Shown here: positions 4,617 to 26,030 of the stretch, in pieces
Layout of the letters: each line of letters opens with the position of its first letter
Numbering within the stretch: the stretch's first letter is position 1
DNA from: an uncultured Roseburia sp.
GTDB lineage: Bacteria > Bacillota > Clostridia > Lachnospirales > Lachnospiraceae
Assembly: GCA_947573605.1 (NCBI GenBank)
Contig: CANPGM010000003.1
Span: forward strand, 62,001 to 126,000
Length of the DNA stretch: 64,000 nucleotides
Direction of reading: 5' to 3'
Notes under the pieces: model-generated
What the model was told of the DNA's origin: nothing
The model's database searches: none
What the model saw: the letters and a program-made list of their open reading frames with translations, nothing else
Program-made: the position numbers and the translations under genes

Positions 4617-4649
4617 GCCGTTTGAGCGGCGGAAATGCGAGGAAAAATG
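4617..4649 (+). promoter_or_regulatory. Hairpin plus upstream-ATG leader before the dehydratase gene
   Basis: GCCG-TTTGAG-CGGC is followed by GGAAATGCGAGGAAAAATG. The first ATG (4635) is in frame and 12 bases ahead of ATG 4647. Confidence 0.45.
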
Positions 4650-6527: not shown

Positions 6528-6552
6528 ATGACTATACAGGGAGGATTCATGA

Positions 6553-7164
6553 ATGATTTATCCGAAAATGAAAAGAGCCATTGATTTTTTGGTCAGCCTG
6601 CTGGGATGTATCCTATTGTCTCCCGTGCTTCTCTTTCTGTGCATTGCAATCAAAATAGACAGCAGGGGGCCGGTACTGTTTAAGCAGAAGAGGATCGGCA
6701 TTCACAAAAAGGAATTTTATATTTTAAAGTTTCGGACGATGCGGATTGATACGCCGAAGGATATGCCGACGCATATGCTTGCCAATCCGGAGCAGTACAT
6801 TACAAAAGTAGGAGGTTTTTTGCGAAAGAGCAGCCTTGACGAGCTGCCGCAGATTTTTAATATTCTGGCCGGACAGATGAGCATCGTAGGGCCGCGTCCG
6901 GCGCTTTGGAATCAGGACGATCTGATTGCGGAGCGTGAGAAATACGGAGCGAACGACGTGATGCCCGGGTTGACGGGCTGGGCGCAGATTAACGGCAGAG
7001 ACGAGCTGGAAATACCGGTCAAGGCCAGGTTAGACGGGGAGTATGTGAAACGCATGAGTTTTCTCTTTGATTTGAAATGCTTTTTTGGTACGTTTATCAG
7101 CGTAGCAAAGCATGACGGCGTTGTGGAAGGAGGAACCGGTACGTTGCACGACCGGTCAAAGTAG
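6553..7164 (+). CDS. Initiating phosphoglycosyl transferase (bacterial sugar transferase, PglC-like)
   Basis: A 203-residue monotopic enzyme. It has one N-terminal hydrophobic re-entrant segment (residues 10-35), the conserved FKQKRIG and ILKFRTMR motifs, the catalytic-type KSSLDELPQ pair (Asp-Glu) near 97-105, SIVGPRPAL, and [12 protein letters not shown]. This family transfers a phosphosugar from a UDP-sugar to undecaprenyl phosphate at the inner membrane face and starts repeat-unit assembly. The small size with no large N-terminal membrane domain matches PglC-type enzymes. Its place directly after the CapD/PglF-like dehydratase suggests the first sugar is that dehydratase's derivative. GGGAGGATT sits well placed upstream of ATG 6553. 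Confidence 0.92.
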
Positions 7165-7165
7165 G

Positions 7166-8074
7166 ATGAAAAAGGTATTGATTACGGGGTCCGGCAGCTA
7201 TGTCGGGACTTCTTTTGAACGATGGATGCAGCGTTATGCCGATTATCGGATTGATACAATTGATATGGTGGATGGGGAGTGGCGTAATAGAAGTTTTTCG
7301 GGACATTATGCCATTTTTCACGTTGCGGGGTTAGCGCATGCGGACGTCACGAATGTATCGGAAGAGGTAAAAAAGAAATATTACGCGGTCAACTGCGATA
7401 TGGCGATTGAGGCCGCGCAGAAGGCAAAAAGCGACGGGGTCAGACAGTTTATCTTTATGAGCAGTATGAGTGTGTACGGCGAGAGCGCTCCGGTCGGCAA
7501 GCAGCGGATTATTACGGCGGAAACGCCGGCTTCGCCCGCGAACTTTTACGGAGACAGCAAAGTGCAGGCGGAGAAAGGACTGCTCGAATTAATCGACGAA
7601 GAGTTTAAGGTCGTAATCTTGCGGCCGCCGATGGTATACGGAAAGGGAAGCAAGGGAAATTTCCCGATTTTGGAGAAATTTGCGCGGACGCTGCCGGTTT
7701 TTCCGGCGATTAAAAACGAACGTTCGATGATTTTTATCAACAATCTCTGCGAATTTGTCCATCTGGCGATTGAGCGGGAAGCAAGCGGTATCTTTTACCC
7801 GCAAAATTCGGACTATGTCACGACGTCAAGAATGGTGGAGAAAATTGCGGCGGAGCATCATAAGCATATCTGGGTGACGCCGCTTTTTAACTGGGCGATT
7901 TACCTGCTTTCACGAATGCCGGGGCAGTACGGAAAGCTCTGCAACAAGGCGTTCGGCAGTCTTGTCTACGATAAGGAATTAAGCAACGGTCCGATTAAGG
8001 TTTCGGAGTATCAGACCGTTTCTTTTGAAGAATCGATACGGCTGACGCGGACAGAGGATGAAATCGCCATGTAA
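7166..8074 (+). CDS. NAD-dependent sugar epimerase/dehydratase (extended SDR)
   Basis: A 302-residue extended short-chain dehydrogenase. The N-terminal nucleotide-binding loop reads TGSGSYVG rather than the usual GxxGxxG. The active-site elements are present: the SSMSVYG strand, and the Tyr-x3-Lys pair in FYGDSKVQAEKG. The protein is typical of UDP-hexose 4-epimerases or 4-keto reductases acting on nucleotide sugars. It starts one base after the phosphoglycosyl transferase stop, and its product probably feeds that enzyme or a later glycosyltransferase. The open frame extends upstream into the previous gene, but ATG 7166 begins the conserved MKKVLITG strand. Exact substrate cannot be told. Confidence 0.82.
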   Translation: MKKVLITGSGSYVGTSFERWMQRYADYRIDTIDMVDGEWRNRSFSGHYAIFHVAGLAHADVTNVSEEVKKKYYAVNCDMAIEAAQKAKSDGVRQFIFMSSMSVYGESAPVGKQRIITAETPASPANFYGDSKVQAEKGLLELIDEEFKVVILRPPMVYGKGSKGNFPILEKFARTLPVFPAIKNERSMIFINNLCEFVHLAIEREASGIFYPQNSDYVTTSRMVEKIAAEHHKHIWVTPLFNWAIYLLSRMPGQYGKLCNKAFGSLVYDKELSNGPIKVSEYQTVSFEESIRLTRTEDEIAM

Positions 8075-8092
8075 AAGACGGGGTGAAGAGGT

Positions 8093-8839
8093 ATGGAATT
8101 GGATATCATGGTAAGCATTGTAACGGTTTGCTTCAACAGTGAAAAAACAATCCGGGATACGATTGAGTCGGTGCTGCATCAGACTTATTCCAATATCGAG
8201 TATCTGATTATAGACGGAAAATCAACGGATGAAACCGTAGCAATTGCGGAAAGCTATCGCAGCGCTTTTTTAGAAAAGGGAATGAAGTATCTCGTAGTAA
8301 GCGAACCGGACCGGGGAATTTACGACGCGATGAATAAGGGAACCAGACGCGCGTGCGGACAGCTTGTCGGCATATTAAACAGTGACGACTGGTACGAAGC
8401 AAATACGGTAGAACGTGTCGTGGATACGTATCGAAAAACCGGGTTTGATCTCTTTTATGCCGATATCCGGTTAATCAAGCCGAACGGCGAAGCGATTATC
8501 AAACACGCGAGATATCGGAAATATGCTACGTCGCGGGATTGGAATCATCCAACTACATTTGTGAAGAGGGAGATTTACGACCGGTTCGAATACCAGTGTA
8601 AAGTGGTATACGACGACTGGGATTTTATTTTAAAGGTCAGGAATGCGGGATATAAAATTGTAGTCATAAACGAGGTACTTGCGAACTTCCGCATGGGCGG
8701 CGCCAGCAACGAAGGCGGCATTGGACGCGCGTTAAAAAAGGTGTCGGAGCGTTACCGGATCTACCGTCAGAACGGAATGAGCCGCTTTTATTTTCTGGAA
8801 TGTCTGGTTCACGAAACGGCGAAAGCGCTGTTAAAGTGA
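8093..8839 (+). CDS. Family 2 glycosyltransferase
   Basis: A 248-residue GT-A fold enzyme of the WcaE-like type. It has VSIVTVCFNSEKTI at the N-terminus, the YLIIDGKSTDET strand, PDRGIYDAMNKG, and the metal-binding region ILNSDDWY. The later FANFRMGG stretch is typical of this subgroup. It is soluble or peripherally membrane-bound and would transfer one sugar onto the lipid-linked glycan in the cytoplasm. It follows the epimerase by 18 bases with GAAGAGG before ATG 8093. Acceptor and donor are not identifiable. Confidence 0.88.
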   Translation: MELDIMVSIVTVCFNSEKTIRDTIESVLHQTYSNIEYLIIDGKSTDETVAIAESYRSAFLEKGMKYLVVSEPDRGIYDAMNKGTRRACGQLVGILNSDDWYEANTVERVVDTYRKTGFDLFYADIRLIKPNGEAIIKHARYRKYATSRDWNHPTTFVKREIYDRFEYQCKVVYDDWDFILKVRNAGYKIVVINEVLANFRMGGASNEGGIGRALKKVSERYRIYRQNGMSRFYFLECLVHETAKALLK

Positions 8840-13655: not shown

Positions 13656-13730
13656 AAAGCCGCGGCGGGGGGAGCGCGAAGCATCCATTTTTCACACTGT
13701 GAAAAAACGTACGCAGAAATGAGGGGTATT

Positions 13731-14912
13731 ATGGCAAAAATCTGTCTGATCGCTTCTTCCGTATTTACGTACGGCGGGGAGCAGAGAGTAACCGCAGTCA
13801 TTGCAAATGAGCTGGCGAAAAACAATCGGATTGTTTTATATACAATGGACGGGGAAGCCGATATCGAAGCGAATCCTTACGGCCTGACCGGGGAAATCGA
13901 AATACGCTGTACGAAACAGCCAAAATTTGGTATGATAAACCGTGTCTTACGCAGACTGATTCGGGAACTGAACGAAAAGACGGGACTTTTCTATCGAAAG
14001 CGTTCCTGTTACGGCGTACTTGAATACGCCTATTTTCCGAAAGCATGGCAGAAGCAGCTTTTGTCCGAGCTAAACCGAGAACCCTATGATGTGATACTTG
14101 CCGTATCCGGAGGAAATTCCATGCGGCTCGGATTGATTGCGGACGGCCTTTCCTGCCGGACGGCGGGATGGGAGCACAACGCATACGAGGCGTATTTTGA
14201 AACGCCGGGTCTGTATTTCTGGCATATGGATCTGCTGTTTCAAAAGGCCGTAAACAGCCTTGACCACTGTATCGTCTTAAACGATTATATCAGACAAAGA
14301 TACAAAAAAGCGTTCGACGCGGACTGCGATGTAATTTATAATCCGCGAAGCTTTGTCAGTGCGGAAAAAAGCGCGCTGAAAAATAAGACATTCGTCGCAT
14401 GCGGCAGGATGATCCGCCAGAAAGGATTTGATTTACTGATTGAGGCTTTTGCCAGGTTTGCCGCACGAGACAGCGAATGGAATCTTGTGATTGTCGGCGA
14501 CGGCGAGATGCGGGGACAGATCGAGGAAGCGGTACGGTCATACGGACTTTCGGAACGTGTGGTTATTACCGGTTTTACAAATGAAGTAAAAAGATATCTT
14601 CTGGAAGCCTCCGTTTATCTGCTTTCTTCGCGCTGGGAGGGTTTTCCGATGGTACTGACGGAAGCATTTGAGATGGGACTCCCGACGGTGGCTTTTGACA
14701 TTACGGCGGTTACGCCGCTTCTTACGGACGGAGAGGAAGGGCTGCTTGCACGGCCGTTCGATACGGAGGACTTTGCAAAACGGATGTATGAAATAACGAG
14801 ACTTCCGCAAAAGGATTTAGAGGAAATGGCTCAAAAAGCGGTCCGGAAGGCGGAAAGTCTTGCGGTGGAGCGGATCATAACCGCATGGAAGGAACTTCTT
14901 GGCGCGGACTAA
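13731..14912 (+). CDS. Family 4 glycosyltransferase
   Basis: A 393-residue GT-B enzyme. ATG 13731 begins MAKICLIASS; an earlier in-frame ATG at 13719 overlaps the ribosome binding stretch ATGAGGGG. The N-terminal domain has a glycine-rich TYGGEQRVT loop. The C-terminal domain has VACGRMIRQKGFDLLIEAF, VIVGDGEMRGQI and the donor site SRWEGFPMVLTEAFEMG, as in retaining GT4 enzymes. A GC-rich stretch AAAAAGCCGCGGCGG lies after the previous stop, and the 75-base gap holds no gene. Confidence 0.88.
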   Translation: MAKICLIASSVFTYGGEQRVTAVIANELAKNNRIVLYTMDGEADIEANPYGLTGEIEIRCTKQPKFGMINRVLRRLIRELNEKTGLFYRKRSCYGVLEYAYFPKAWQKQLLSELNREPYDVILAVSGGNSMRLGLIADGLSCRTAGWEHNAYEAYFETPGLYFWHMDLLFQKAVNSLDHCIVLNDYIRQRYKKAFDADCDVIYNPRSFVSAEKSALKNKTFVACGRMIRQKGFDLLIEAFARFAARDSEWNLVIVGDGEMRGQIEEAVRSYGLSERVVITGFTNEVKRYLLEASVYLLSSRWEGFPMVLTEAFEMGLPTVAFDITAVTPLLTDGEEGLLARPFDTEDFAKRMYEITRLPQKDLEEMAQKAVRKAESLAVERIITAWKELLGAD

Positions 14913-14941
14913 GCGGGCGGCGGGAACAAAGGAGCAAAGCA

Positions 14942-15793
14942 TTGAAGACATTTATTAAAAATCATTTTCCCGGAACGGTACAGTTTTTACGGGATATCCA
15001 AACGCGTTCGGCATATCGGAAACGAAAAAAAGCCGTTACATTGCGCAACGAAAGGCTGCATGAAAGCTATCGGAAGAATCTGGAGCGGTTTCATAATATC
15101 CATAAAGGGGAACGCTGCTTTATTGTCGGGACGGGGCCCAGCCTTCGAATTGAAGATGTTGATTTATTAAAAGAAGAATATACTTTTGGAGTGAACTCCT
15201 GCCTTACCATGTACGATAAGACAGATTGGCGTGCCACCTATTACGGAATCGTCGATTCCCATACGGTAGCGATTATGGGAGATAAGCTGAAAACGGATGA
15301 AATTCCTGTCTTTTTTTATACCGATCTCGACGCCTCATACGACGGGAAAAACGGGATTGCATTTCCGAAAGACGATACGGATAATATGATGACCGACACT
15401 TTTTTTCACAGACGTTTTCCGAAGCGTTTTCCGGAAACGGATTTCAGCGGAGATATTACGAAAGTAGTGTACACGGGAAAATCCGTCGTCTATGCGATGC
15501 TGCAGATTGCGGCATATATGGGATTTACGGAAATTTATCTGCTTGGTGTGGACTGCAATTATGCGCAGCCGAAAATGTACAGCGACAATGTAACGTATAT
15601 TGATCATAAAACGAAATGGACGAAGGAAAAACTGTTAAAAAACGGAAATCAGATGCTGCCGCAGTTTGAGATTGCGGAGCAATATGCAAAGGAGCACGGG
15701 TTTGCCATCTATAACGCCACAAGGGGCGGGCAGCTTGAGGCTTTTAAACGCGTGAAGCTGGAAGATCTGTTTAGAAAGGAAGAAAAAGTATGA
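14942..15793 (+). CDS. DUF115/MptE-like domain protein, possible glycosyltransferase of a CMP-sugar
   Basis: A 283-residue protein starting at TTG 14942, with AGGAG about 8 bases upstream; the open frame before it has no good start. After a basic N-terminal helix (about 1-50) it has a Rossmann-like domain: CFIVGTGPSLRIEDVDLL near 60, FGVNSC, YYGIVDSHT and IYLLGVDCNYAQ. This pattern is that of DUF115 (6-hydroxymethylpterin diphosphokinase MptE-like) proteins, a group also found in motility and capsule loci where it seems to act in sugar-acid transfer. It overlaps the KdsB-like gene by ATGA, so the two are translationally coupled. A role as transferase of the CMP-activated product is inference only. 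Confidence 0.6.
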   Translation: MKTFIKNHFPGTVQFLRDIQTRSAYRKRKKAVTLRNERLHESYRKNLERFHNIHKGERCFIVGTGPSLRIEDVDLLKEEYTFGVNSCLTMYDKTDWRATYYGIVDSHTVAIMGDKLKTDEIPVFFYTDLDASYDGKNGIAFPKDDTDNMMTDTFFHRRFPKRFPETDFSGDITKVVYTGKSVVYAMLQIAAYMGFTEIYLLGVDCNYAQPKMYSDNVTYIDHKTKWTKEKLLKNGNQMLPQFEIAEQYAKEHGFAIYNATRGGQLEAFKRVKLEDLFRKEEKV

Positions 15794-16527
15794 AAATAAT
15801 CGGAGTAATACCGTCGCGTTACGAATCCTCGCGCTTTCCGGGAAAGCCGTTGGCTGAAATCTGCGGGAAACCGATGATTTACTGGGTATATCGGCAGGCG
15901 GTTAAGGTAAAGGAATTTGACGATGTAATTGTTGCTACAGATGACGAGAGGATTGCAGACGTCTGCAGACAGTATGAGATGAACGTGCTTATGACGTCGA
16001 AAGAGCATCCGACCGGAACCGACCGGCTTGGAGAAGTGGCGAAATTGATAGAGGCGGATTTTTACGTCAATATACAGGGTGACGAGCCTTTGATAGAGCC
16101 GGAGACGATAAAAAAGGTGGTAGACTATAAAATGGAGCGTCCGGAAACGGAAGTAATTAATACGATTACCCCGATCCGGGAGGAATTTGAGATTACATCG
16201 AATACCTGCGTCAAAGTCGTAACGAACAGCGAGGACGACGGAATCTATCTTTCCCGTTCCCCGATCCCGTATCCGAAAAAGGGACAGGAGATTACTTATT
16301 ATAAACATCTCGGACTTTACGGCCTAAGCAGGAAGGCGCTTTTATTCTACGCGTCAAAAAAGCGGACAAAGCTCGAACAGATTGAGGATATCGAAATGCT
16401 TAGGTTCGTGGAAAACCATATCAATATTAAATTTGTAACGGTAGATTCCGCTACAATCGCGGTCGACCGGGCGGAAGATATTGCAAGAGTCGAAGAAAGA
16501 TTCGCGTGCGGTATGGCGGAACATTAG
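15790..16527 (+). CDS. kdsB: CMP-sugar-acid synthetase, KdsB (3-deoxy-manno-octulosonate cytidylyltransferase) family
   Basis: A 245-residue cytidylyltransferase of near-standard KdsB length. It has the nucleotide loop IPSRYESSRFPGKPL at 7-21, VIVATDDERI, the TGTDRL motif, QGDEPLIEP at about 96-104 and YLSRSPIPY. KdsB couples a 3-deoxy-2-keto sugar acid (normally Kdo) to CMP. Kdo is a lipopolysaccharide sugar, so the enzyme in a Gram-positive capsule-type locus points to a Kdo-like ulosonic acid in the surface glycan. No KdsA, KdsC or NeuB gene is visible nearby; the following pyruvate-aldolase-like gene may fill that role. Confidence 0.85.
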   Translation: MKIIGVIPSRYESSRFPGKPLAEICGKPMIYWVYRQAVKVKEFDDVIVATDDERIADVCRQYEMNVLMTSKEHPTGTDRLGEVAKLIEADFYVNIQGDEPLIEPETIKKVVDYKMERPETEVINTITPIREEFEITSNTCVKVVTNSEDDGIYLSRSPIPYPKKGQEITYYKHLGLYGLSRKALLFYASKKRTKLEQIEDIEMLRFVENHINIKFVTVDSATIAVDRAEDIARVEERFACGMAEH

Positions 16528-16613
16528 GCGGATCGGTTCGCCTGTTCGCCCATTTGCGGCGTTGAATCAGGTCTGCTGCATATCAGGGTTGTGGAAAGGT
16601 GTGAGGGATTGCA

Positions 16614-18212
16614 TTGAAAAATATTCAGATTTTGGATTGCACGCTGCGGGACGGCGGCTGTGTCAACGATTTTAATTTCGGAAGCGATTATATGGGAAAG
16701 ATTCTTTGCGCGCTGGAAGAGTCCGGCGTCGATATGATAGAGATGGGATATATCGACGAAAAGAAAGGCTCGTCCGAAGGGCGTACGCAGTATGACAGGG
16801 AAGAAGCCATCCGCGGTTATCTGAAAGAGAAAAAGCCGGGGGTCGCCTATGTCGCGATGATCGACTACGGAAAATTTGACGCGGACAGGCTGCCGGAGCG
16901 TACGGAGACGGATGTTGACGGGATCCGGCTGGCGTTTCATAAAAAAGACCGCAAAGAAATTGTCGCCTGCGGTAAGAAGATTATGGCAAAGGGATACCGG
17001 TTTTATATTCAGCCGATGACGGTCATGCGGTATTCCGACAGCGAGTTGTTAGAGCTGATTGGAGAGGTAAACGAAAAGCTTTCCGACGCGTCTGCTTTTT
17101 ATATTGTCGACAGTTTCGGAGAAATGCGCGCGAACGATATGAACCGGATTTTGAATCTGGTGGACCATAATCTGTATCCGGGCATGACGCTTGGCTTTCA
17201 TTCCCACAATAATTTACAGCTTTCTTATTCCAACGCCATTACCTTTATTGATTTCCATACCGAAAGAGACCGTATCATCGACGTTTCGATTATGGGAATG
17301 GGAAAAGGCGCCGGCAATTTGAATACGGAGCTGTTTGCGGAGCACTTAAATCTGTATTTTGAAAAAAGCTATCGGATTGAACCTTTGCTGGAAGTGATTG
17401 ATACGGTCATTAATCAGCTTCATTCCGAGTTTTACTGGGGCTACTCCGTGGAATATTATCTTTCGTCCATACACCACTGCACGCCGAGTTATGCGGGGCA
17501 TTTTTTTAAAAAGCATATGCTTTCGATTGATCAGGTGTCGGAGCTTTTAAAGCTTTTGCCGGAGGAAAAGAAAATATCGTTTGACCGGGAATTTGCAGAT
17601 CGGCTTTATTTGGAATATAATGAGAAAAAACAAAAGCAGGACGAAGAGGAAACGCTTTCCGAGTTAAAGCGCGCGTTTTCGGGAAAGGCGGCGCTTCTAT
17701 TGGCGCCGGGCAGACGCTTAACCGAGGCGGACGGGAAAATCAAAGAATTGCTGCGGGACGACGGCGTTGTTTCGGTATCGCTGAACAATCATAAAGCGTA
17801 CGAAACCGATTACGTACTTGCGACAAAACGGGGGAGCTTTGAAGGCGCGGCCGCGAGCGGTCGTACCGTAATTGTAACTTCGAATGTCTTAAACGCGCAG
17901 GAGGAATATCCGAGGGAGCGGATTAAGACGCTGAACTATAAAAATTGGATTCGGGTGGAGAACGGCGTCAACGATTCCGCAGTGGTTGTGATCTTCGGGC
18001 TTCTTTCGGCGCTTGGCGTTAAGAAAGCGTATCTGGCGGGCTTTGACGGATTTTCTGCAAATATCAACGAAAATTATCTGGACAAGACGCTGCGCCGTCC
18101 GGTGACAGACGAACAGGCACGGGAACGAAACGAGTTTTTCAGAACATTTCTCCGCAAACAAAAAGAAACGATGGAGCTTTTTTATTTGACGGAATCGCTG
18201 TACAACAAATAG
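16614..18212 (+). CDS. DRE-TIM (HMGL-like) pyruvate aldolase fused to a Rossmann-like C-terminal domain
   Basis: A 532-residue protein starting at TTG 16614 (GGTGTGAGGG upstream). Residues 1-300 form a DRE-TIM metallolyase barrel: DCTLRDGG at 8-15 with the catalytic Arg12 and metal-ligand Asp13, and the metal site GFHSHNN with His196 and His198. Relatives include 4-hydroxy-2-oxovalerate aldolase, which adds pyruvate to aldehydes to give 4-hydroxy-2-oxo acids, the same chemistry needed for a Kdo-like acid. Residues about 350-532 form a second domain (LLLAPGRRL, AYLAGFDGFSAN) that resembles the DUF115-like neighbour's IYLLGVDCNYAQ segment. The context with KdsB suggests a joint path. The real substrates are unknown. 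Confidence 0.75.
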   Translation: MKNIQILDCTLRDGGCVNDFNFGSDYMGKILCALEESGVDMIEMGYIDEKKGSSEGRTQYDREEAIRGYLKEKKPGVAYVAMIDYGKFDADRLPERTETDVDGIRLAFHKKDRKEIVACGKKIMAKGYRFYIQPMTVMRYSDSELLELIGEVNEKLSDASAFYIVDSFGEMRANDMNRILNLVDHNLYPGMTLGFHSHNNLQLSYSNAITFIDFHTERDRIIDVSIMGMGKGAGNLNTELFAEHLNLYFEKSYRIEPLLEVIDTVINQLHSEFYWGYSVEYYLSSIHHCTPSYAGHFFKKHMLSIDQVSELLKLLPEEKKISFDREFADRLYLEYNEKKQKQDEEETLSELKRAFSGKAALLLAPGRRLTEADGKIKELLRDDGVVSVSLNNHKAYETDYVLATKRGSFEGAAASGRTVIVTSNVLNAQEEYPRERIKTLNYKNWIRVENGVNDSAVVVIFGLLSALGVKKAYLAGFDGFSANINENYLDKTLRRPVTDEQARERNEFFRTFLRKQKETMELFYLTESLYNK

Positions 18213-18229
18213 TAGTGAGGGAGAGGCAG

Positions 18230-19711
18230 ATGCAGAGGCAGAATGCATATTTTATCAAGGAAAGAGAAATTGACATAAAAACGATGCTGATAAGCTGTAT
18301 CAGGCGGTGGAGAGGAATCCTGATTGCGGCGGCGATTGGAGCGGTAATTGCGTGCGCGGTAAAGTATCAGGCGGATGTATCGGCGGCCGAAGCGGCGATC
18401 AACAATCAGATTGAGGCGGCGAATGCGCCGGAAATCACGGTGGAATATCTGGAAGAAAAGCTTGGGGAAAGCCAGGTGGCCTCCGTGCAGAATGCGCTCG
18501 ACCACTGGAGGTATATTGAACGGAAGAATGATTATATGGAGCATTCCGTCTGGTTTAATCTGAATGCCTATGCGGTGGACGCCGTATTTTTGACATATCA
18601 GGTCAGCGCGGAACATCCGGCGGCTGTTATCAACGACTGTAAACGGTTTGCGACAGGCGAAGAGATGGTGAACGGAATTACACAGGATCTGGGACTTTCG
18701 CTGGAAAGCCAGTATGTGCTGGAGCTTTTGTCGATATCGGCGTCGGATAATACGACCTGCTTTACGATTCGGGTATACGCGGAAAATGCGGAAAGCTGCG
18801 CGCTTCTTGCGGACAGCGTAGACAAGCAGATGAAAAATTATGCGGCGTCGTTTTCTGCGGACGGGACTCAGATTTCATTAAAAGAACGCGACGCGCAGGT
18901 GGTAGTCGACGCGGCGTTAGCCGGAACGCAGGCCGGACATACCGGTGAGATTAATAATATGCTGAATACCTTCAACGGCTATATGCAGGGACTTGGGGAA
19001 GAACAGCATACGCTGTTTGAGCTGCTTGTCAAAGAAAACGCAGAGACGTCGTTGTTTGCGGGGGAGAGCGGCGAAGAAGAAACTCCTGAGGGAGAGAAAG
19101 GAACTCCTGTGGAAATCGATACGACAATCCATGTAAGACCAAGCGTCAGAATGGCAGTCATCGGCTTTGCGGCGGGCGCAATTGCCGCTTATGCGGTATT
19201 TATGCTGCTTTATACGGTATCGAAAAATATTCACGGCACAGACGAGGTGAAATATTTGTTCGGCATACCGGTATTCGGAACCGTAAATACCATTACGGTA
19301 GGAAAAAAGAGATTATTTGGCAAAACGGACCTTATGTTGGACCGTCTGCTTCGCGGGAAAAAATACCTGTCTTATGAGGAAGAGCTTTCTCTGGCCGCTG
19401 AAAAAATCCGGGTTTACTGTGACAAACAGGAGAGAAAGGAAATTTATGCCTGCGGCGTTTCCGCCATAAATATTCCTGCGGACTGCCTGGATAAGCTGGC
19501 GGGGCTTCTGGCCGCCGACGGTATCGCTATGACATATGGCTCCGACGTCTGCAGGGACAAAGAGGCGATAAAGAAAGCGTCTGAAACGGGGGGCGTGCTT
19601 CTTGTGGAAGCCGACGAAAAAACAGGCTGCGGAGAAATTGCGAAAGAGCTCAATATCTGCAGGCAGAGCGGGATAGAGGTAATCGGTGTCGTACTGGCGC
19701 AGGTTTTTTAA
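18230..19711 (+). CDS. Wzz-type chain-length regulator with a vestigial tyrosine-kinase-like C-terminal domain
   Basis: A 493-residue membrane protein. ATG 18230 sits after GAGGGAGAGG; a GTG 15 bases earlier is less likely. One membrane helix lies near 30-47 and another near 305-325, with a large extracytoplasmic helical domain between, the Wzz/YveK layout. The C-terminal cytoplasmic part (about 360-493) follows the BY-kinase plan, including GVLLVEADEKT and the closing IEVIGVVLAQV, but where the Walker A loop should be (SAINIPADCLDK) there is no GKS/T. It is therefore probably a catalytically dead kinase-like platform controlling polymer length or export. No separate BY-kinase gene is seen in the window. 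Confidence 0.75.
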   Translation: MQRQNAYFIKEREIDIKTMLISCIRRWRGILIAAAIGAVIACAVKYQADVSAAEAAINNQIEAANAPEITVEYLEEKLGESQVASVQNALDHWRYIERKNDYMEHSVWFNLNAYAVDAVFLTYQVSAEHPAAVINDCKRFATGEEMVNGITQDLGLSLESQYVLELLSISASDNTTCFTIRVYAENAESCALLADSVDKQMKNYAASFSADGTQISLKERDAQVVVDAALAGTQAGHTGEINNMLNTFNGYMQGLGEEQHTLFELLVKENAETSLFAGESGEEETPEGEKGTPVEIDTTIHVRPSVRMAVIGFAAGAIAAYAVFMLLYTVSKNIHGTDEVKYLFGIPVFGTVNTITVGKKRLFGKTDLMLDRLLRGKKYLSYEEELSLAAEKIRVYCDKQERKEIYACGVSAINIPADCLDKLAGLLAADGIAMTYGSDVCRDKEAIKKASETGGVLLVEADEKTGCGEIAKELNICRQSGIEVIGVVLAQVF

Positions 19712-19738: not shown

Positions 19739-20842
19739 TTGGAAACGGTTAGATTAATCGCCGGGATTCCTGTATTGCTTTTAGCGCTTGGAATTGTCCC
19801 GGTATTGACGGGAGCGGCATTCTCTTTTAAGCTGAAAACGGAATATAGAAAGGGGCTTACCTTTAACTACACGGTCGGTATTTTAGTGATGCTTGCGGTG
19901 ATGCAGCTTTATTCGGTGCCGTTCACGCTCCTGCAGTGCAGTTTTACCAGTCTTGTCATTCTTTATTCGGGAACGCTCGCCCTGTTTTGCGTGTTTTCGC
20001 TTCTGCGGAGGCGGCGTTATTTGGCAAAACTGTTCCAAAATGCGGGAAGTCTCATCAAAAGAGCCGATAAAAAGTGGTTTTTGCTTGTGGCGCTGATTTA
20101 TCTTCCGGTCATTGCGCTGTCCTTTTTTACGCCGTATATTTACGGAGACGATAAGACATATCTTACAATGGTAAATGATATTGCGGCTTCCGATACGCTT
20201 TATATGATTGATACGGCTACCGGGGAGCCGATTACCTGGGTATCCGCAAAGTACGCGCTGTCCTCTTACTGGACGTTTCTTGCGTGGCTTGTAAAAATTA
20301 CGGGTATCCATACGCTGATTTTATGTAAAACAATACTTGCGTTTTTTATTGCGCCGATCAGTTATGCGGTGCAGGGGCTTTTATTTTCGTTTTTGTTTCG
20401 TTCAAACGAACGGAAAATGCTCGCCGCCATGTTTTTTTTAAATCTGCTTCAGCTTTTCGGCTGTTTTTCGATTTATTCGGTTTCGTACCGGCTCTATACG
20501 TGGATTTGGCAGAGTAAAGCGTTTTTGGCGATTATCGTCATTCCGTTTCTGTTTTATTATTGTAATCTGATATTTGAAAAAAAATGTGCGCCGCGGGAAT
20601 ATCTCTGCCTTTCGGTTTTTATTACTGCGGCGTGTTCGACGACGCTGACCGGAGCCGGACTTGCCGTATTAATGGTGATGCTGCTTTCGGTGATTTATGC
20701 GTTTCTCTGTAAACGGCCGCTTATTGTAATCGGCGCGGGGCTTGCCGGCATTCCCGCCGCTGTTTACATGCTGCTTTATCTGCGGTATGATATGTTTGTA
20801 AGCTGGCTTCGCGTACAAGGAGTATTTCGTGGAATTAGTTAA
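19739..20842 (+). CDS. DUF6077-type membrane protein, N-terminal part of an apparently frameshifted gene
   Basis: A 367-residue frame with about ten membrane helices, starting at TTG 19739 behind AAAGGAAT. It has the acidic loop YGDDKTYLTMVND after the fourth helix or so. The frame ends with VQGVFRGIS while the next frame (from 20829) supplies exactly the C-terminal half found in the uninterrupted relative at 2835-4598. Joined, the two parts would give about 604 residues against 587 there. Both frames are open only between 20802 and 20842, so a one-base insertion or two-base deletion probably lies there, either a real mutation or a sequencing error. If intact it would be a GT-C-like candidate. 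Confidence 0.65.
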   Translation: METVRLIAGIPVLLLALGIVPVLTGAAFSFKLKTEYRKGLTFNYTVGILVMLAVMQLYSVPFTLLQCSFTSLVILYSGTLALFCVFSLLRRRRYLAKLFQNAGSLIKRADKKWFLLVALIYLPVIALSFFTPYIYGDDKTYLTMVNDIAASDTLYMIDTATGEPITWVSAKYALSSYWTFLAWLVKITGIHTLILCKTILAFFIAPISYAVQGLLFSFLFRSNERKMLAAMFFLNLLQLFGCFSIYSVSYRLYTWIWQSKAFLAIIVIPFLFYYCNLIFEKKCAPREYLCLSVFITAACSTTLTGAGLAVLMVMLLSVIYAFLCKRPLIVIGAGLAGIPAAVYMLLYLRYDMFVSWLRVQGVFRGIS

Positions 20843-21551
20843 ATTTTTAAATGAGACGTTTTGGGGGGACGGCGGATATCTGCTGTTATTTGCCGTTTCC
20901 ATTCTTATTACATTGTTTCGGGAAGATATCGAAATGCGCGGAAAGCGAATGGCGCTGTACTCGGCGCTCTGCTTTGTGTTAGTCGTTTATAATCCGATAC
21001 TCGGAAAGCTTGCGGTCGAGCACTTTATGGAAGACCAGTGGGCGTATCTTCGCATTTTTTACCTGCTTCCGATTATGACCGTTATCGCTTATGCCATGTC
21101 GGAGTTCTATGTGAAAACGGCAAAAAAAACGGACCCGCGGAAGAGAAAATTATTAATTGCCGGCATTTTATCCATTTTAGTTGTATTATCCGGTCACTTT
21201 TACGGTAAAAACATGTATCTGAAGGCGGAAAATATCTATAAAATTGATAGTGAAGCGCTGGAAGTGATTCGTGTGATCGAGGAGGACAAGGAGGAGGGAC
21301 GGACGCGGATTCTTTTGCCGGAGGGAGAGGAAAACCTGATTTTCGGGCTAAGGCAGTATACGCCCGATCTTGTGATCGCAGGTTATTCGGATAAGCTTGA
21401 CGAGGAAGGCGGGCTTATGGAGGCAGAAAATAATCTTGATTATACGTATGTGATTATCGGGAAAGAGCGTACGCTTGTGGATTGTATGGAACAGGCGGGT
21501 TATACGTATCTGGTATCTACGGAATCGCATTTCATTTATAAAAAAGGATGA
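20829..21551 (+). CDS. DUF6077-type membrane protein, C-terminal part of the frameshifted gene
   Basis: A 240-residue frame beginning at a GTG inside the end of the previous one, with no clear ribosome binding site. It has four or so hydrophobic segments, then a soluble tail with ILLPEGEENLIFGLRQY and HFIYKKG at the end, parallel to FLLAPGEIAS and SLYYKK at the end of the protein at 2835-4598. The reading frame before 20829 continues open back to 20802 (AYKEYF), which favours one ancestral gene over two. The glycosyltransferase gene follows after 7 bases. Confidence 0.6.
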   Translation: MELVKFLNETFWGDGGYLLLFAVSILITLFREDIEMRGKRMALYSALCFVLVVYNPILGKLAVEHFMEDQWAYLRIFYLLPIMTVIAYAMSEFYVKTAKKTDPRKRKLLIAGILSILVVLSGHFYGKNMYLKAENIYKIDSEALEVIRVIEEDKEEGRTRILLPEGEENLIFGLRQYTPDLVIAGYSDKLDEEGGLMEAENNLDYTYVIIGKERTLVDCMEQAGYTYLVSTESHFIYKKG

Positions 21552-21558
21552 TCAGACT

Positions 21559-22752
21559 TTGGGAAAAAACGTTTTATATGTGACAAATTATTATTTAGAA
21601 GATGTGATCGCACAGCGAAGTCCGGGGGAGTGTCTTTCGCAGGCGGGGCAGAATAAGGGAACTTATATCATCGACATGCTGGAATGCGGCGGCAACCATG
21701 TGACGGTGTGGTCGAATGCCTGGACGAAAGAACGCGGCCTGCGGCGTTTTAAGGGCTTTCGTTCAAAGTTGAATCCGAACGTCTATTATTCGGACATTAT
21801 AGCGCTTCCGGTATTGAACGCATATAGCTGCCTGTATTGCAGCAGGCGCTTTTTAAAAAGGCTGGTAAAAGAACGCAGGCCCGACGTCCTTATTTTTTAC
21901 AATATGCGCCTCGAAAATTCCAGACTGGCGCTGTATGCCAAAAAGAAGTTCGGCATTCCGATTATTCTGCAGTATGAGGACGGACTGACAACGGATGAAG
22001 GGGTCGGCGGATTGAAGCGGAAAATTTACAAAAGACTGGAGCGGCAGGTTTTACATCAGCTGGACGGCGCGTTTTTAGTCAATTCCAAAATAAAAGTGCC
22101 GTGTCCGTCCGTAGTAATCCGCGGAGCCGTCCGGGAGGATGATTTTAACGGAGACACGGACAGGAAGGCGGATACGTCGTTGGGCGCGGCGGGCCGGAGC
22201 AGAACCCCCGGCTTAAAGCTTACATTTTTGTTCGCAAGTACGCTGGATGAGCAGCGCGGGACAGACGTCGTGTTAGAGGCGTTATCCTATACAAATCTGG
22301 ATTTTACACTGAAAATAACGGGGCGCGGCGAGGCGGAGGAACGGGTGAAGGCCTGCACGGACCCGCGCGTGCGTTTTCTGGGATATCTGGATTACGGCGA
22401 CTATAAAAAGGAATTGTCCGAGGCGGATATCTGTATCAACGCGCAGCTTTCCCGCCATGCTTTCGGAGGTTTTTCGTTCCCGTCGAAAATTTTTGAATAC
22501 CTCTCGGCCGGTAAGCCGGTGGTGTCTTCCGATGTAGCGGATACGAAGGAAGCGCTTAGCGACGCGTTATTTCTTTACTATGAAGACGACCCGAAGCAGC
22601 TCGCTGCAGCGATGGAACGTGCGGCGGCTGTCTGTATGGACGAAAAAGCATATGCCGGATACAGAGCGAAAATCAGCGAAGTAATTCGGGAAAATTCCAT
22701 TTCGTCCGTTGCTGAGAACGTAAACGGATTGTTTGAAAAAATCGGAGCATAA
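21559..22752 (+). CDS. Family 4 glycosyltransferase
   Basis: A 397-residue GT-B protein. The likely start is TTG 21559, which begins the strand GKNVLYVTNYYLED; the open frame upstream lies inside the previous gene. Typical elements are ILQYEDGLTTDEG, LTFLFASTLDEQRGTDVVLEAL, KITGRGEAEERV and the donor site AFGGFSFPSKIFEYLSAGKP. The usual Glu-x7-Glu is replaced by a Pro-Ser-Lys-Ile-Phe-Glu arrangement common in capsule GT4 enzymes. Role in repeat-unit elongation. Confidence 0.85.
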   Translation: MGKNVLYVTNYYLEDVIAQRSPGECLSQAGQNKGTYIIDMLECGGNHVTVWSNAWTKERGLRRFKGFRSKLNPNVYYSDIIALPVLNAYSCLYCSRRFLKRLVKERRPDVLIFYNMRLENSRLALYAKKKFGIPIILQYEDGLTTDEGVGGLKRKIYKRLERQVLHQLDGAFLVNSKIKVPCPSVVIRGAVREDDFNGDTDRKADTSLGAAGRSRTPGLKLTFLFASTLDEQRGTDVVLEALSYTNLDFTLKITGRGEAEERVKACTDPRVRFLGYLDYGDYKKELSEADICINAQLSRHAFGGFSFPSKIFEYLSAGKPVVSSDVADTKEALSDALFLYYEDDPKQLAAAMERAAAVCMDEKAYAGYRAKISEVIRENSISSVAENVNGLFEKIGA

Positions 22753-22775
22753 GCTTGAACATGAAAGGTTCAAGC
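22753..22775 (+). other. Intergenic hairpin after glycosyltransferase gene
   Basis: A perfect 8-base inverted repeat GCTTGAAC/GTTCAAGC with a 7-base loop begins directly after the TAA of the preceding gene. No T-run follows, so it is not a classic terminator. It may mark an mRNA end or a processing/stability point within the operon. Confidence 0.5.
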
Positions 22776-22849
22776 GCGGGATTTGTATCTGCGCGCAGTG
22801 TATCACAAACTCGTTATATGCAGAAAATGGCGCAGAAATGGAGAAAACT

Positions 22850-23602
22850 ATGGAATGGAATCAGGAGCTGGTGTCAATTATTACGCCAATGTACAATGCC
22901 GGGCGCTATATCGGAGAAGCCATAGAGTCGGTACAGCGTCAGACCTATCCGAATTGGGAAATGATTATTATGGACGATTTATCCGACGACGGAAGCGCAG
23001 AAATCGTACAGGAATACGCGAAAGCGGACGGACGAATCCGTTATTTTCGGGAGACGGTCAAATCCGGCGTGGCGAAGGGACGCAACGACGCAATGAAACT
23101 TGCCGGGGGAAGATACTTAGCCTTTTTGGACAGCGACGATTTATGGAAACCAAAGAAGCTGGAAAAGCAGCTTTCTTTTTTAAAAAACAGGCGATGCGCC
23201 TTTACTTATGCGGCCTGCGACGTTGTGGACGAAAACAGTGTCGCGACATCGAAAGTACGCCACGTTCCGCCTAAAATTACGTATGAAAAGCTTCTCTGGG
23301 GGAATGTGATTCCGTGTCTGACCGTTTTGCTGGACCGGGAGTTTGTCGGAGAATTTTCCATGCCGGAAATCGGGCATGAGGACTATGCCGCCTGGCTTAC
23401 CATTTTCAGGAAGATTCCGGCGGCGTACGGGATAGACGAGATACTGGGGAGTTATCGAATTAATAATCAGTCGGTCAGTGCGAACAAGCTTCGTACTATA
23501 GGATGGACCTGGAATATATACCGGAGGAATCAGAAGCTTCCGGCATATAAAAGCTTTTTTTATCTGATCGGACATTTAACACAGGCAATGAGGAAACGAT
23601 AG
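22850..23602 (+). CDS. Family 2 glycosyltransferase
   Basis: A 250-residue GT-A enzyme with VSIITPMYNAGRYIGEAIES, MIIMDDLSDDGS and the metal site AFLDSDDLWKPKKLEKQ. ATG 22850 has GGAGAAAA upstream; ATG 22838 and a longer frame to 22733 lack good signals, and the conserved fold begins just after 22850. It lies 97 bases after the previous gene, the gap holding a hairpin, and 1 base before the next gene. Confidence 0.87.
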   Translation: MEWNQELVSIITPMYNAGRYIGEAIESVQRQTYPNWEMIIMDDLSDDGSAEIVQEYAKADGRIRYFRETVKSGVAKGRNDAMKLAGGRYLAFLDSDDLWKPKKLEKQLSFLKNRRCAFTYAACDVVDENSVATSKVRHVPPKITYEKLLWGNVIPCLTVLLDREFVGEFSMPEIGHEDYAAWLTIFRKIPAAYGIDEILGSYRINNQSVSANKLRTIGWTWNIYRRNQKLPAYKSFFYLIGHLTQAMRKR

Positions 23603-23603
23603 T

Positions 23604-24737
23604 ATGATTATACTGATAGACGCGAGAACGCTCGGAGAGAAACCGAGCGGGATCGGAATTTATTTATATCATTTTGTAATAGAGTTGAACAAAAGGCCGG
23701 ACATTACGCTTGCGCTTCTTACAGATGTAGATAGAAGCGAGGAGTTTATGCGGATCAGAGAAGAGGGAATCCCAATTTGTATTTACGGAAAACCGGTAAA
23801 AAACAGTATTGGAGTTTACTCGTATTTTCGGTTCGTACAAAAGCAGATCCGATTCCGAAGACCGGATATTTTCTGGGAGGTCAATAATCTGCTTCCGGTC
23901 AGAATAAGAAACCGGCACGGAAAAATTGCGGTTACGATTCACGACCTTTTTCCGATTTCGGACCCGGATTGTTTTCCGAATTATTATGTCCCGTATTATA
24001 AATACGGAATCAAAAAAACCGTGAGGCAGACGGATTTGATTTTATACGATACGGAGACGGCGAAAAAAAGTGTGGAATGCTATGAGGAGCGGGCGGCAAA
24101 ACGGCCGAATCTGGTTTCCTATATTATTATAGACCATATGCCGAAGCTGACGGTTTCCGATCAGGGGTATTTTCTCTATATCGGAAATCTGGAGCGCAGG
24201 AAAGGAACGGACCTTCTTTTAAAGGCGTATATGCAGTATCGCAGCCTGGGCGGGACGCTTTCGCTTCATCTGGGCGGTTCGGTCAGAGAGGAAGAAATCG
24301 GGAAGCTGATCGACGAATGCGTATCCCGCTGTAAGCAGATTGTACGGCTGGGTTATCTTTCCGACGAATATAAGTGGATGGAATACGCCGGATGCAGCGC
24401 GTTTGTGTTCCCTTCGCGGGCGGAGGGATTCGGAATGCCTGCGGTTGAGGCGCTGTTTTATCGAAAGCCATTGATCTTAAGCAGACTTGACGTGTTTGAA
24501 GAAATCGTCGGCAGCGAAATTCCGTTTGTAGCGCTTCACGAGGACGAGGAATTGACGATAAAGGAGCTTGCGGATCAGATGCTTTTCATGGAGCAAAGCC
24601 TTTCTGACAGGCGGCAGGGAAACGGCGGAGAGGCAAAATGCTTTCTGCCTGACGACGAGTACTGTGAAAAAGTGACGGAACGCTATGCCGGAACGCGGCT
24701 TACCGGGCGTCTCGCCGCATTTTTTCACGGAAAATAA
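23604..24737 (+). CDS. Family 4 glycosyltransferase
   Basis: A 377-residue GT-B protein. It begins with IILIDARTLGEKPSGIGIY, the pattern of the mannosyltransferase-like GT4 group that opens with a glycine-rich acceptor loop. Later come VTIHDLFPIS, FLYIGNLERRKGTDLLLKAY and the donor site PSRAEGFGMPAVEAL with two conserved glutamates. It follows the GT2 gene almost without a gap. The sequence would fit a mannose or rhamnose transferase, but that is not certain. Confidence 0.87.
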   Translation: MIILIDARTLGEKPSGIGIYLYHFVIELNKRPDITLALLTDVDRSEEFMRIREEGIPICIYGKPVKNSIGVYSYFRFVQKQIRFRRPDIFWEVNNLLPVRIRNRHGKIAVTIHDLFPISDPDCFPNYYVPYYKYGIKKTVRQTDLILYDTETAKKSVECYEERAAKRPNLVSYIIIDHMPKLTVSDQGYFLYIGNLERRKGTDLLLKAYMQYRSLGGTLSLHLGGSVREEEIGKLIDECVSRCKQIVRLGYLSDEYKWMEYAGCSAFVFPSRAEGFGMPAVEALFYRKPLILSRLDVFEEIVGSEIPFVALHEDEELTIKELADQMLFMEQSLSDRRQGNGGEAKCFLPDDEYCEKVTERYAGTRLTGRLAAFFHGK

Positions 24738-24740
24738 AGA

Positions 24741-24773
24741 GCCGCACCGGGCGGCGGAATGAGAGGAAAGATG
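24741..24773 (+). promoter_or_regulatory. Hairpin plus upstream-ATG leader before glycosyltransferase start
   Basis: GCCGC-ACCGG-GCGGC forms a 5-base-pair stem. It is followed directly by GGAATGAGAGGAAAGATG, where the ribosome binding sequence is nested behind an in-frame ATG 12 bases before the start. This is the clearest case of an arrangement repeated at several genes in the window. Confidence 0.5.
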
Positions 24774-26030
24774 AGGGAGGATATTGACTTATCCTTAAAG
24801 GGATTATTAAAAGAGAGTATACCGAAGGAATGGGTGACGGCCTACCGCAAGACGAAGCTCTGGACGCAGACGAACGCGCTGAGACTGGTGCCGCAGCGGC
24901 AGTTTGACCGGACGGCGTTCCCGGACGGCATTAATTTAATCGGCAATATCAGGCTGAACGCGGGGCTTGGACAGAGTATGCGGCTGGTTGCGGACGAATT
25001 AAAACACAGCGGCGTGCCGTTCTGCATTTATGAGCATCATATCTCAAAAAATTTCAGTATGACGGATCACACCAAAGACGGGTTGATTTCCAACCGGCTC
25101 CTTTACAACGTAAATCTGATTCATGTGAATCCGCACGAATTTGCGAAGGCCTATTTCCAGATGGGAAAAAAGACTTTTGACAGACACTACAATATCGTAT
25201 TCTGGCTCTGGGAGCTGGAGGAATTTCCCGATCTCTGGAAGGGCTGTTTTAACGTGATAGATGAAATCTGGACGCCGGCGGAGTTTGTCAGCGAAGCAAT
25301 TCGGAAAAAGACGGACAAGCCTGTTTACACGATTCCGTATCATGTCGACGCGCCGACAGACCCCCGGTATGACCGGGCGTATTTCAATCTGCCCGAAGAT
25401 CAGTTTCTGTTTTTGACGATGTACGATTATCAGAGCATGGCGGATCGAAAAAATCCGCAGACAGCCCTGATGTCGTTTAAGAGGGCGTTTCCGCCGGAAA
25501 ATGATAAAGTCGGTTTTGTAGTAAAGCTAAACGATACGCCCAGGAATATCGTTCCGTACGTGAGAATGGTAATGGAGAAGTATTCGAATGTTTATATGAT
25601 ACCGGGAATTTTGTCAAAGGCGGAAGTAAACAGTCTGATCGGGTGCGTCGACGCGTTTGTATCTACGCACCGGGCCGAAGGATTCGGGCTTGTAATGGCG
25701 GAATCCATGTTAAACGGCGTACCGTGCATTGCGACAAACTGGTCGGCCAATACGGAATTTATGAACAGCGACGTTGCCTGTATGGTAAATTACAGAATGG
25801 TAAAACTAAAGCAGGACATCGGACCGTATGTGCGCGGCAGCCGGTGGGCGGAACCGAGTATCGCAAGTACGGCCGGCCATATGAAGCGGTTGTATGAGGA
25901 TAAGGAGTATTATAAGCGGTTAAGCGAAGACGGGAAGAAGTATCTGGAAGAGAAGCTTGGTATGGAGCGGATAGCGGGTCTGATCAGGCAGCGGATTGCC
26001 GAAATTCTTCCCGGATCTATGCAAGGATAA
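24771..26030 (+). CDS. Family 4 glycosyltransferase, mannosyl/rhamnosyl-transferase-like
   Basis: A 419-residue GT-B enzyme. ATG 24771 follows AGAGGAAAG; an in-frame ATG at 24759 overlaps that signal. The domain begins with INLIGNIRLNAGLGQSMRLVADEL, and FWLWELEEFPDLW follows, a combination typical of mannan/rhamnan chain enzymes. The C-terminal donor site is STHRAEGFGLVMAESMLNG with both glutamates present. Enzymes of this type often make homopolymeric ABC-exported glycans, consistent with the Wzm/Wzt genes 1.6 kb downstream. Confidence 0.85.
   Translation: MREDIDLSLKGLLKESIPKEWVTAYRKTKLWTQTNALRLVPQRQFDRTAFPDGINLIGNIRLNAGLGQSMRLVADELKHSGVPFCIYEHHISKNFSMTDHTKDGLISNRLLYNVNLIHVNPHEFAKAYFQMGKKTFDRHYNIVFWLWELEEFPDLWKGCFNVIDEIWTPAEFVSEAIRKKTDKPVYTIPYHVDAPTDPRYDRAYFNLPEDQFLFLTMYDYQSMADRKNPQTALMSFKRAFPPENDKVGFVVKLNDTPRNIVPYVRMVMEKYSNVYMIPGILSKAEVNSLIGCVDAFVSTHRAEGFGLVMAESMLNGVPCIATNWSANTEFMNSDVACMVNYRMVKLKQDIGPYVRGSRWAEPSIASTAGHMKRLYEDKEYYKRLSEDGKKYLEEKLGMERIAGLIRQRIAEILPGSMQG

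Follow-up and report, generated by a model that had tools for sequence, protein, structure and literature searches.

Ulosonic sugars of the Kdo (3-deoxy-manno-octulosonic acid) and sialic types found in bacterial glycans are taken to be products of phosphoenolpyruvate (PEP)-dependent synthases, KdsA and NeuB. The closest described systems are the CMP-Kdo pathway (KdsD, KdsA, KdsC, KdsB; CMP, cytidine monophosphate) and the NeuB/NeuA-type pathways for nonulosonic acids. The 4-hydroxy-2-oxovalerate aldolases described so far act in catabolism, and their reaction is reversible. Here, we describe a stretch of 64,000 nucleotides from an uncultured Roseburia sp. (contig CANPGM010000003.1 of assembly GCA_947573605.1, positions 62,001 to 126,000; this whole stretch is referred to as the window), which carries three genes on the + strand encoding a DUF115/MptE-like protein, a cytidylyltransferase of the KdsB type and a DRE-TIM aldolase extended by a C-terminal domain. 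Judged from sequence, these genes likely form a CMP-ulosonate module in which the aldolase would perform the carbon-carbon bond-forming step done elsewhere by KdsA or NeuB. An aldolase in the place of KdsA or NeuB is the best-supported reading, mainly because the searches of many carriers revealed no other synthase.

The three proteins of the module

The DUF115/MptE-like gene (14942..15793, + strand) has its longest reading at 14885-15793; the start at 14942, a TTG preceded by AAAGGAG, agrees with the start in the closest relative (locus L034). It overlaps by ATGA with the KdsB-type gene (15790..16527, + strand), and the aldolase open reading frame (ORF; 16614..18212, + strand) begins with a TTG 86 bp downstream of the latter. 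The adjacency of three genes, the overlap and the KdsB-type and DRE-TIM identities given in a preliminary description of this DNA are borne out by the sequence, by Pfam and NCBIfam and by the motifs.

The cytidylyltransferase (PF02348, 3.1e-55) scores above the NCBIfam cut-offs of PRK13368 (282 bits versus 255) and TIGR00466 (178 versus 155.2) and below that of the equivalog NF003948 (182 versus 281). Its nearest solved chain is 1gq9, a KdsB, and an alignment of 12 KdsB-type proteins revealed R10, R15, K19, D98, S155, R156 and D226, which we take to be active-site residues, to be invariant. We propose this protein to be a CMP-ulosonate synthetase.

The aldolase, the proposed pyruvate-dependent ulosonate synthase, matches PF00682 (HMGL-like, 1.8e-16) and contains both a TLRDGG and a GFHSHNN motif. 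Within 26 aligned aldolase proteins, including that of the window, R12, D13, H196 and H198 are invariant; in alignment they fall on the corresponding motif of the 4-hydroxy-2-oxovalerate aldolase DmpG (1nvm), from whose roles we assume the Asp and the HxH to be metal-binding and the Arg to be catalytic. Foldseek with the predicted structure (pLDDT 89.6) retrieved 3dxi, a putative aldolase of Bacteroides vulgatus, followed by 4-hydroxy-2-oxovalerate aldolases, 3dxi being the best match of the aldolase domain in sequence as well as in structure. The cut-off for 4-hydroxy-2-oxovalerate aldolases is not reached (TIGR03217, 84.4 versus 286), and a Pfam scan of 19 genes of the window, all outside positions 20829-26030, found no acylating aldehyde dehydrogenase partner.

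The C-terminal domain of the aldolase protein (about residues 352-532; 17667..18209, + strand) was modelled with fair confidence. The preliminary description had regarded it as a DUF115-like domain fused to the aldolase; the domain itself is real in the sense of being conserved in an alignment of 23 such domains, but its kinship to DUF115 appears weak (hhalign E 4.4e-4, probability 33.5%). Clusters of the same type also contain solo aldolases that lack it (L065, L067), so the domain is dispensable for the basic role.

The DUF115/MptE-like protein scores 51.9 bits against PF01973 (cut-off 34.6; E 9.8e-14). A profile built from 23 DUF115 proteins found nine CMP-sialyltransferase sequences as its best PDB matches (E 2.5e-5 to 0.0036), ahead of 5mu5 (0.0046), which we take to be a Maf, and MptE (0.21). 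The score against the WaaZ Kdo III transferase model is far below its cut-off (20.1 versus 200). A study on Maf describes its pfam01973 domain as resembling Cst-II, and a clostridial Maf as using CMP-Neu5Ac (CMP-N-acetylneuraminic acid) and CMP-Kdo (PMC11339370). Based on the profile matches, we propose the DUF115 protein to transfer the ulosonate from its CMP donor.

A search of the class Clostridia (391 genomes) located DUF115 in 18 genomes at 23 places, 13 of which have a cytidylyltransferase as next gene on the same strand (one of them, L106, as seen in L081 of the window's own genome). The synthase within these clusters varies between KdsA (L081, L117, L124), NeuB (L121), the aldolase and an HpaI-type aldolase (L112). 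The DRE-TIM aldolase adjoins DUF115 in the window, L051 and L041 and lies further off in L038, L040 and L061, while nine DUF115 clusters (L110, L111, L113-L116, L118-L120), whose genes were partly scanned with Pfam, gave no match to the NeuB, KdsA or aldolase models. In the L112 cluster (5788-8740), four genes stand side by side, with DUF115 first and the HpaI-type aldolase between two cytidylyltransferases; this may be another, independent aldolase in the synthase slot.

Recurrence of the aldolase-cytidylyltransferase pair

The aldolase is present in 61 of the 391 genomes, the best 32 of which were followed up by further searches. Of these 32 genomes, 17 carry a PF02348 gene no more than 1 kb away from the aldolase. 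The searches of 12 of the 17 pair-carrying genomes, all with a listed completeness of 91-100%, gave no KdsA over its cut-off and no NeuB scoring more than 140 bits. Across the 32 genomes, KdsA exceeds its cut-off in a single one, the window's own, and NeuB exceeds 140 bits in eight. Counting 30 of 53 PF02348 places (29 with at least 51 bits and one of 38.6 bits in genome G313, with 23 dropped), 18 are situated within 5 kb of the aldolase, eight of NeuB, one of KdsA and three of none of them. The G313 place was included since it stands beside the aldolase, an inclusion that favours the aldolase as the synthase.

The reverse search, starting from KdsB (E <= 1e-25), identified ten of the 391 genomes, with KdsB beside the aldolase in eight, so that the co-occurrence which the preliminary description had suggested surveying was recovered from both sides. 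The KdsB carrier G243, for which the class search gave no aldolase, encodes KdsB, KdsA, KdsD and KdsC in a row; the aldolase therefore occupies the position held there by KdsA. Only the KdsB query matched on the 8.7-kb contig of a further carrier (G011). Among 33 aldolase ORFs of more than 450 aa, 16 directly follow a cytidylyltransferase gene of the same strand; the set of 33 takes in an artefact ORF (in L073), three aldolase-cytidylyltransferase fusions, L062 (cytidylyltransferase missed by the gene caller) and L109 (cytidylyltransferase following the aldolase) and leaves out the broken L064. This count and the eight of ten in the reverse search speak against chance neighbours.

Hidden PEP-dependent synthases were considered as well. 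A NeuB match at E 1e-5 exists in 29 of the 32 genomes, but above 140 bits in the said eight only; the other 21 do not exceed 50 bits and lie at places matched weakly by the KdsA model too, from which we infer that they are 3-deoxy-arabino-heptulosonate 7-phosphate (DAHP) synthases.

KdsC was detected over its cut-off in eight of the 32 aldolase genomes at nine places: directly downstream of the aldolase in G347, G331, G104 and G181, fused to it in G057, and 2.5 kb (three genes) downstream in G151, whereas the places in G313 and both of those in the window's genome are away from it. G331 combines DUF115, KdsB, aldolase and KdsC consecutively. In G313, a genome without any match to the KdsA model, the gene directly downstream of a solo aldolase encodes KdsD (308 bits); none of the five genomes with KdsC directly after or fused to the aldolase holds KdsA over the cut-off. 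Hydrolases of the HAD-IA (haloacid dehalogenase) type follow or lie near the aldolase in three other tested clusters (L040, L049, L044).

A biosynthetic sequence can be envisaged on this basis. The metal-dependent aldolase would join the pyruvate enolate to the aldehyde of a sugar that is probably phosphorylated, yielding a 3-deoxy-2-ulosonic acid or its phosphate. A phosphatase, such as the KdsC or other HAD hydrolase beside or fused to the aldolase in related clusters, would take off the phosphate, KdsB would form the CMP donor and the DUF115 protein would pass the sugar to the glycan.

A scan of genome contigs with a single protein as query returned two near relatives, and a phage search two partial matches only. 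A Leisingera plasmid is annotated with an aldolase, a 3-deoxy-manno-octulosonate cytidylyltransferase and an HAD hydrolase in a row, which makes the "Gram-positive" scope of the preliminary description too narrow. Three other plasmid matches (L128-L130) were rejected as not being glycan clusters of the module's kind, and many of the plasmid matches listed are dmpG/mhpE. A catabolic aldolase was weighed too and not favored. For eight weaker solo aldolases (L068-L075), which may have another role, the four genes displayed on each flank include no cytidylyltransferase. Considering Clostridia and the Alphaproteobacterial plasmid together, we lean toward a third, PEP-independent class of ulosonate synthases, in which DRE-TIM pyruvate aldolases with KdsB-, KdsC- and DUF115-type partners replace KdsA and NeuB.

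Observations weighing against an aldolase route

Several observations speak against assigning the aldolase to the synthase step, among them the gene content of the window's own genome (3.08 Mb, 71 contigs). The preliminary description had noted no KdsA, NeuB or KdsC, which holds within the window but not for the genome, and a full Kdo or sialic acid pathway elsewhere, which it had named as counter-evidence, does occur in this genome. On contig C1 (G000, L081:4912-10346), DUF115, a cytidylyltransferase, KdsD, an inserted 570-aa ORF and KdsA (TIGR01362, 403 bits) follow one another; two NeuB-type synthases are present, PseI with PseF on C3 and a NeuB-like protein with a NeuA-KdsC fusion on C1, and a separate KdsC is found on C23. 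The window's KdsB could therefore use Kdo made there. It would then activate ordinary Kdo from KdsA, KdsD and KdsC (a scavenged acid in other carriers), with the aldolase making an unrelated product, e.g., a substituent. This explanation is favored by the window's KdsB being the only KdsB-type gene of its genome, but the KdsA cluster has a cytidylyltransferase of its own, no KdsA or NeuB was found in the 12 pair carriers described above, and the KdsC and KdsD genes adjoining the aldolase point to synthesis rather than uptake. We consider it unlikely. The three other synthases of this genome have a cytidylyltransferase at distances of 85, 436 and 2726 bp, and the partner of the window's KdsB is the aldolase, with 192 bp separating the matched stretches. 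The replacement of KdsA and NeuB by the aldolase, as put forward in the preliminary description, is in part supported by the recurrent pairing, the carriers found without either synthase and the KdsC and KdsD neighbors, but the genome at hand also holds KdsA, KdsD, KdsC and NeuB-type enzymes.

There are further adverse points. The His following the RDG of DmpG, presumably its acid/base residue, is a Cys in the window's aldolase and a Tyr in most relatives; therefore, the acceptor and the proton relay probably differ from those of DmpG. KdsD was found over its cut-off in four of 34 genomes searched, two of the four with the aldolase, and this scarcity in aldolase genomes makes KdsD-made arabinose 5-phosphate unlikely as a general acceptor. 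No phosphatase was found beside the aldolase/KdsB pair of the window, for which reason the KdsC on C23 or an unphosphorylated acceptor would have to be assumed in this genome. For the DUF115 protein, the relation to GT42-type sialyltransferases envisaged beforehand is suggested by the profile comparison but not by the fold search: Foldseek, run on a model of middling quality (pLDDT 75.8), ranked MptE first (E 1.3e-3), with no GT42 among the 50 matches listed. Finally, the negative results for pair carriers concern KdsA and NeuB; no search was aimed at other sources of ulosonic acids (reversed NanA-type lyases, uptake).

The catabolic, reversible nature of the known 4-hydroxy-2-oxovalerate aldolases also suggests the opposite direction, i.e., a cleaving aldolase that removes or recycles an ulosonic acid. 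In the 12 pair carriers, the searches revealed no PEP-dependent synthase that could supply a cleaving enzyme with its substrate, and the partners beside the aldolase, including a cytidylyltransferase, KdsC, glycosyltransferases and flippase-type genes, argue against it; we regard cleavage as very improbable compared with an aldolase acting in synthesis.

The family as a whole is more diverse than the pair. Of the 32 genomes, 15 gave no PF02348 gene at a distance of up to 1 kb from the aldolase; a thiamine pyrophosphate (TPP) enzyme is seen in many of these clusters, and an IspD fusion in others. The aldolase family is therefore not tied to CMP-ulosonates alone. A tree was calculated from 45 aldolase domains (including the 551-aa artefact ORF of L073 and L109, which is of unlike make-up). 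The window's aldolase groups with L034 and L035 (99/97), and a group of eight rows (100/100) unites these three with the KdsC-linked L036 and L037 and three N-terminal cytidylyltransferase-aldolase fusions (L046:8166-9905, L050:9113-10852, L052:1519-3249). The 20 rows with a cytidylyltransferase partner display seven changes versus 15.0 in shuffles; the partnership is clustered on the tree, but not of one origin.

Among these fusions, the N-terminal domain of L046 is IspD-like (PF01128, 1.3e-41) and a CDP-glycerol-glycerophosphotransferase-like gene precedes it, while the N-terminal cytidylyltransferase domains of L050 and L052 were deduced from profile and tree. With such a fusion in the window's own tree group, the module might make another activated acid, the cytidylyltransferase acting on a different 4-hydroxy-2-oxo acid or on a phosphate. 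However, the window's partner is KdsB-type according to NCBIfam and the nearest solved chains, and KdsC is the phosphatase of the nearest relatives that have one in their cluster (L036, L037), so that we rate this possibility as quite improbable beside a CMP-ulosonate product.

A second aldolase context comprises L042, L045, L047, L053-L057, L060, L063, L064, L066 and L108, with a TPP enzyme in the cluster or, in L108 (a Desulfobaculum plasmid), a split transketolase in its place. These clusters in part contain HAD hydrolase, epimerase and RfbH-like genes, with no cytidylyltransferase marked beside the aldolase, and the oxo acid formed there perhaps feeds branched-sugar synthesis.

Genomic setting and comparison with known systems

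Lying on the + strand, the module belongs to a surface-glycan cluster that also encodes a polysaccharide-type dehydratase (4635-6527), an initiating sugar transferase (6553-7164) and glycosyltransferases (e.g., 13719-14912); the aldolase is followed by a protein with weak similarity to chain-length regulators (18215-19711). Downstream of this set of glycan genes, a 926-aa protein (32909-35689) combines glycosyl hydrolase 25, transglutaminase-like and CWB2 cell-wall binding domains.

In the open-licence literature, judged by the titles and abstract openings of part of the matching papers, no description of an aldolase-KdsB module was found, and the ulosonic acid of Klebsiella K38, a possible lead, yielded nothing either. 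If the proposed role holds true, genomes judged unable to make ulosonic sugars for want of KdsA or NeuB have been misread, a role falls to proteins that now bear the name "4-hydroxy-2-oxovalerate aldolase" or "aldolase catalytic domain-containing protein", and a class of donor can be assigned to DUF115 proteins.

To Maf and the GT42 CMP-sialyltransferases, the DUF115 protein is linked by the profile matches described above, which may point to kinship but do not amount to a family assignment; it differs as a short single-domain protein within a glycan cluster, and the fold search did not raise GT42 among the matches listed. The aldolase shares with DmpG the fold and the RD...HxH motif; in contrast, it remains below the family cut-off, its catalytic His is replaced, its C-terminal part is another one, and its partner is KdsB instead of an aldehyde dehydrogenase. 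The likeness of its aldolase domain to 3dxi leads to an N-terminal domain that was itself solved without an assigned function. The NeuB/NeuA-type pathways, like the module, pair their synthase with a neighboring PF02348 enzyme that uses CTP for activation, but NeuB is absent from the window and was not found above 140 bits in 12 of the 17 pair genomes. The CMP-Kdo pathway has its counterpart in a KdsB over family cut-offs and, in some relatives, in a KdsC or KdsD next to the aldolase. It differs in that the KdsA of the window's genome resides on another contig with its own cytidylyltransferase, that KdsA exceeds its cut-off in this one of the 32 aldolase genomes alone, and that the place of KdsA would be taken by an aldolase of another superfamily.

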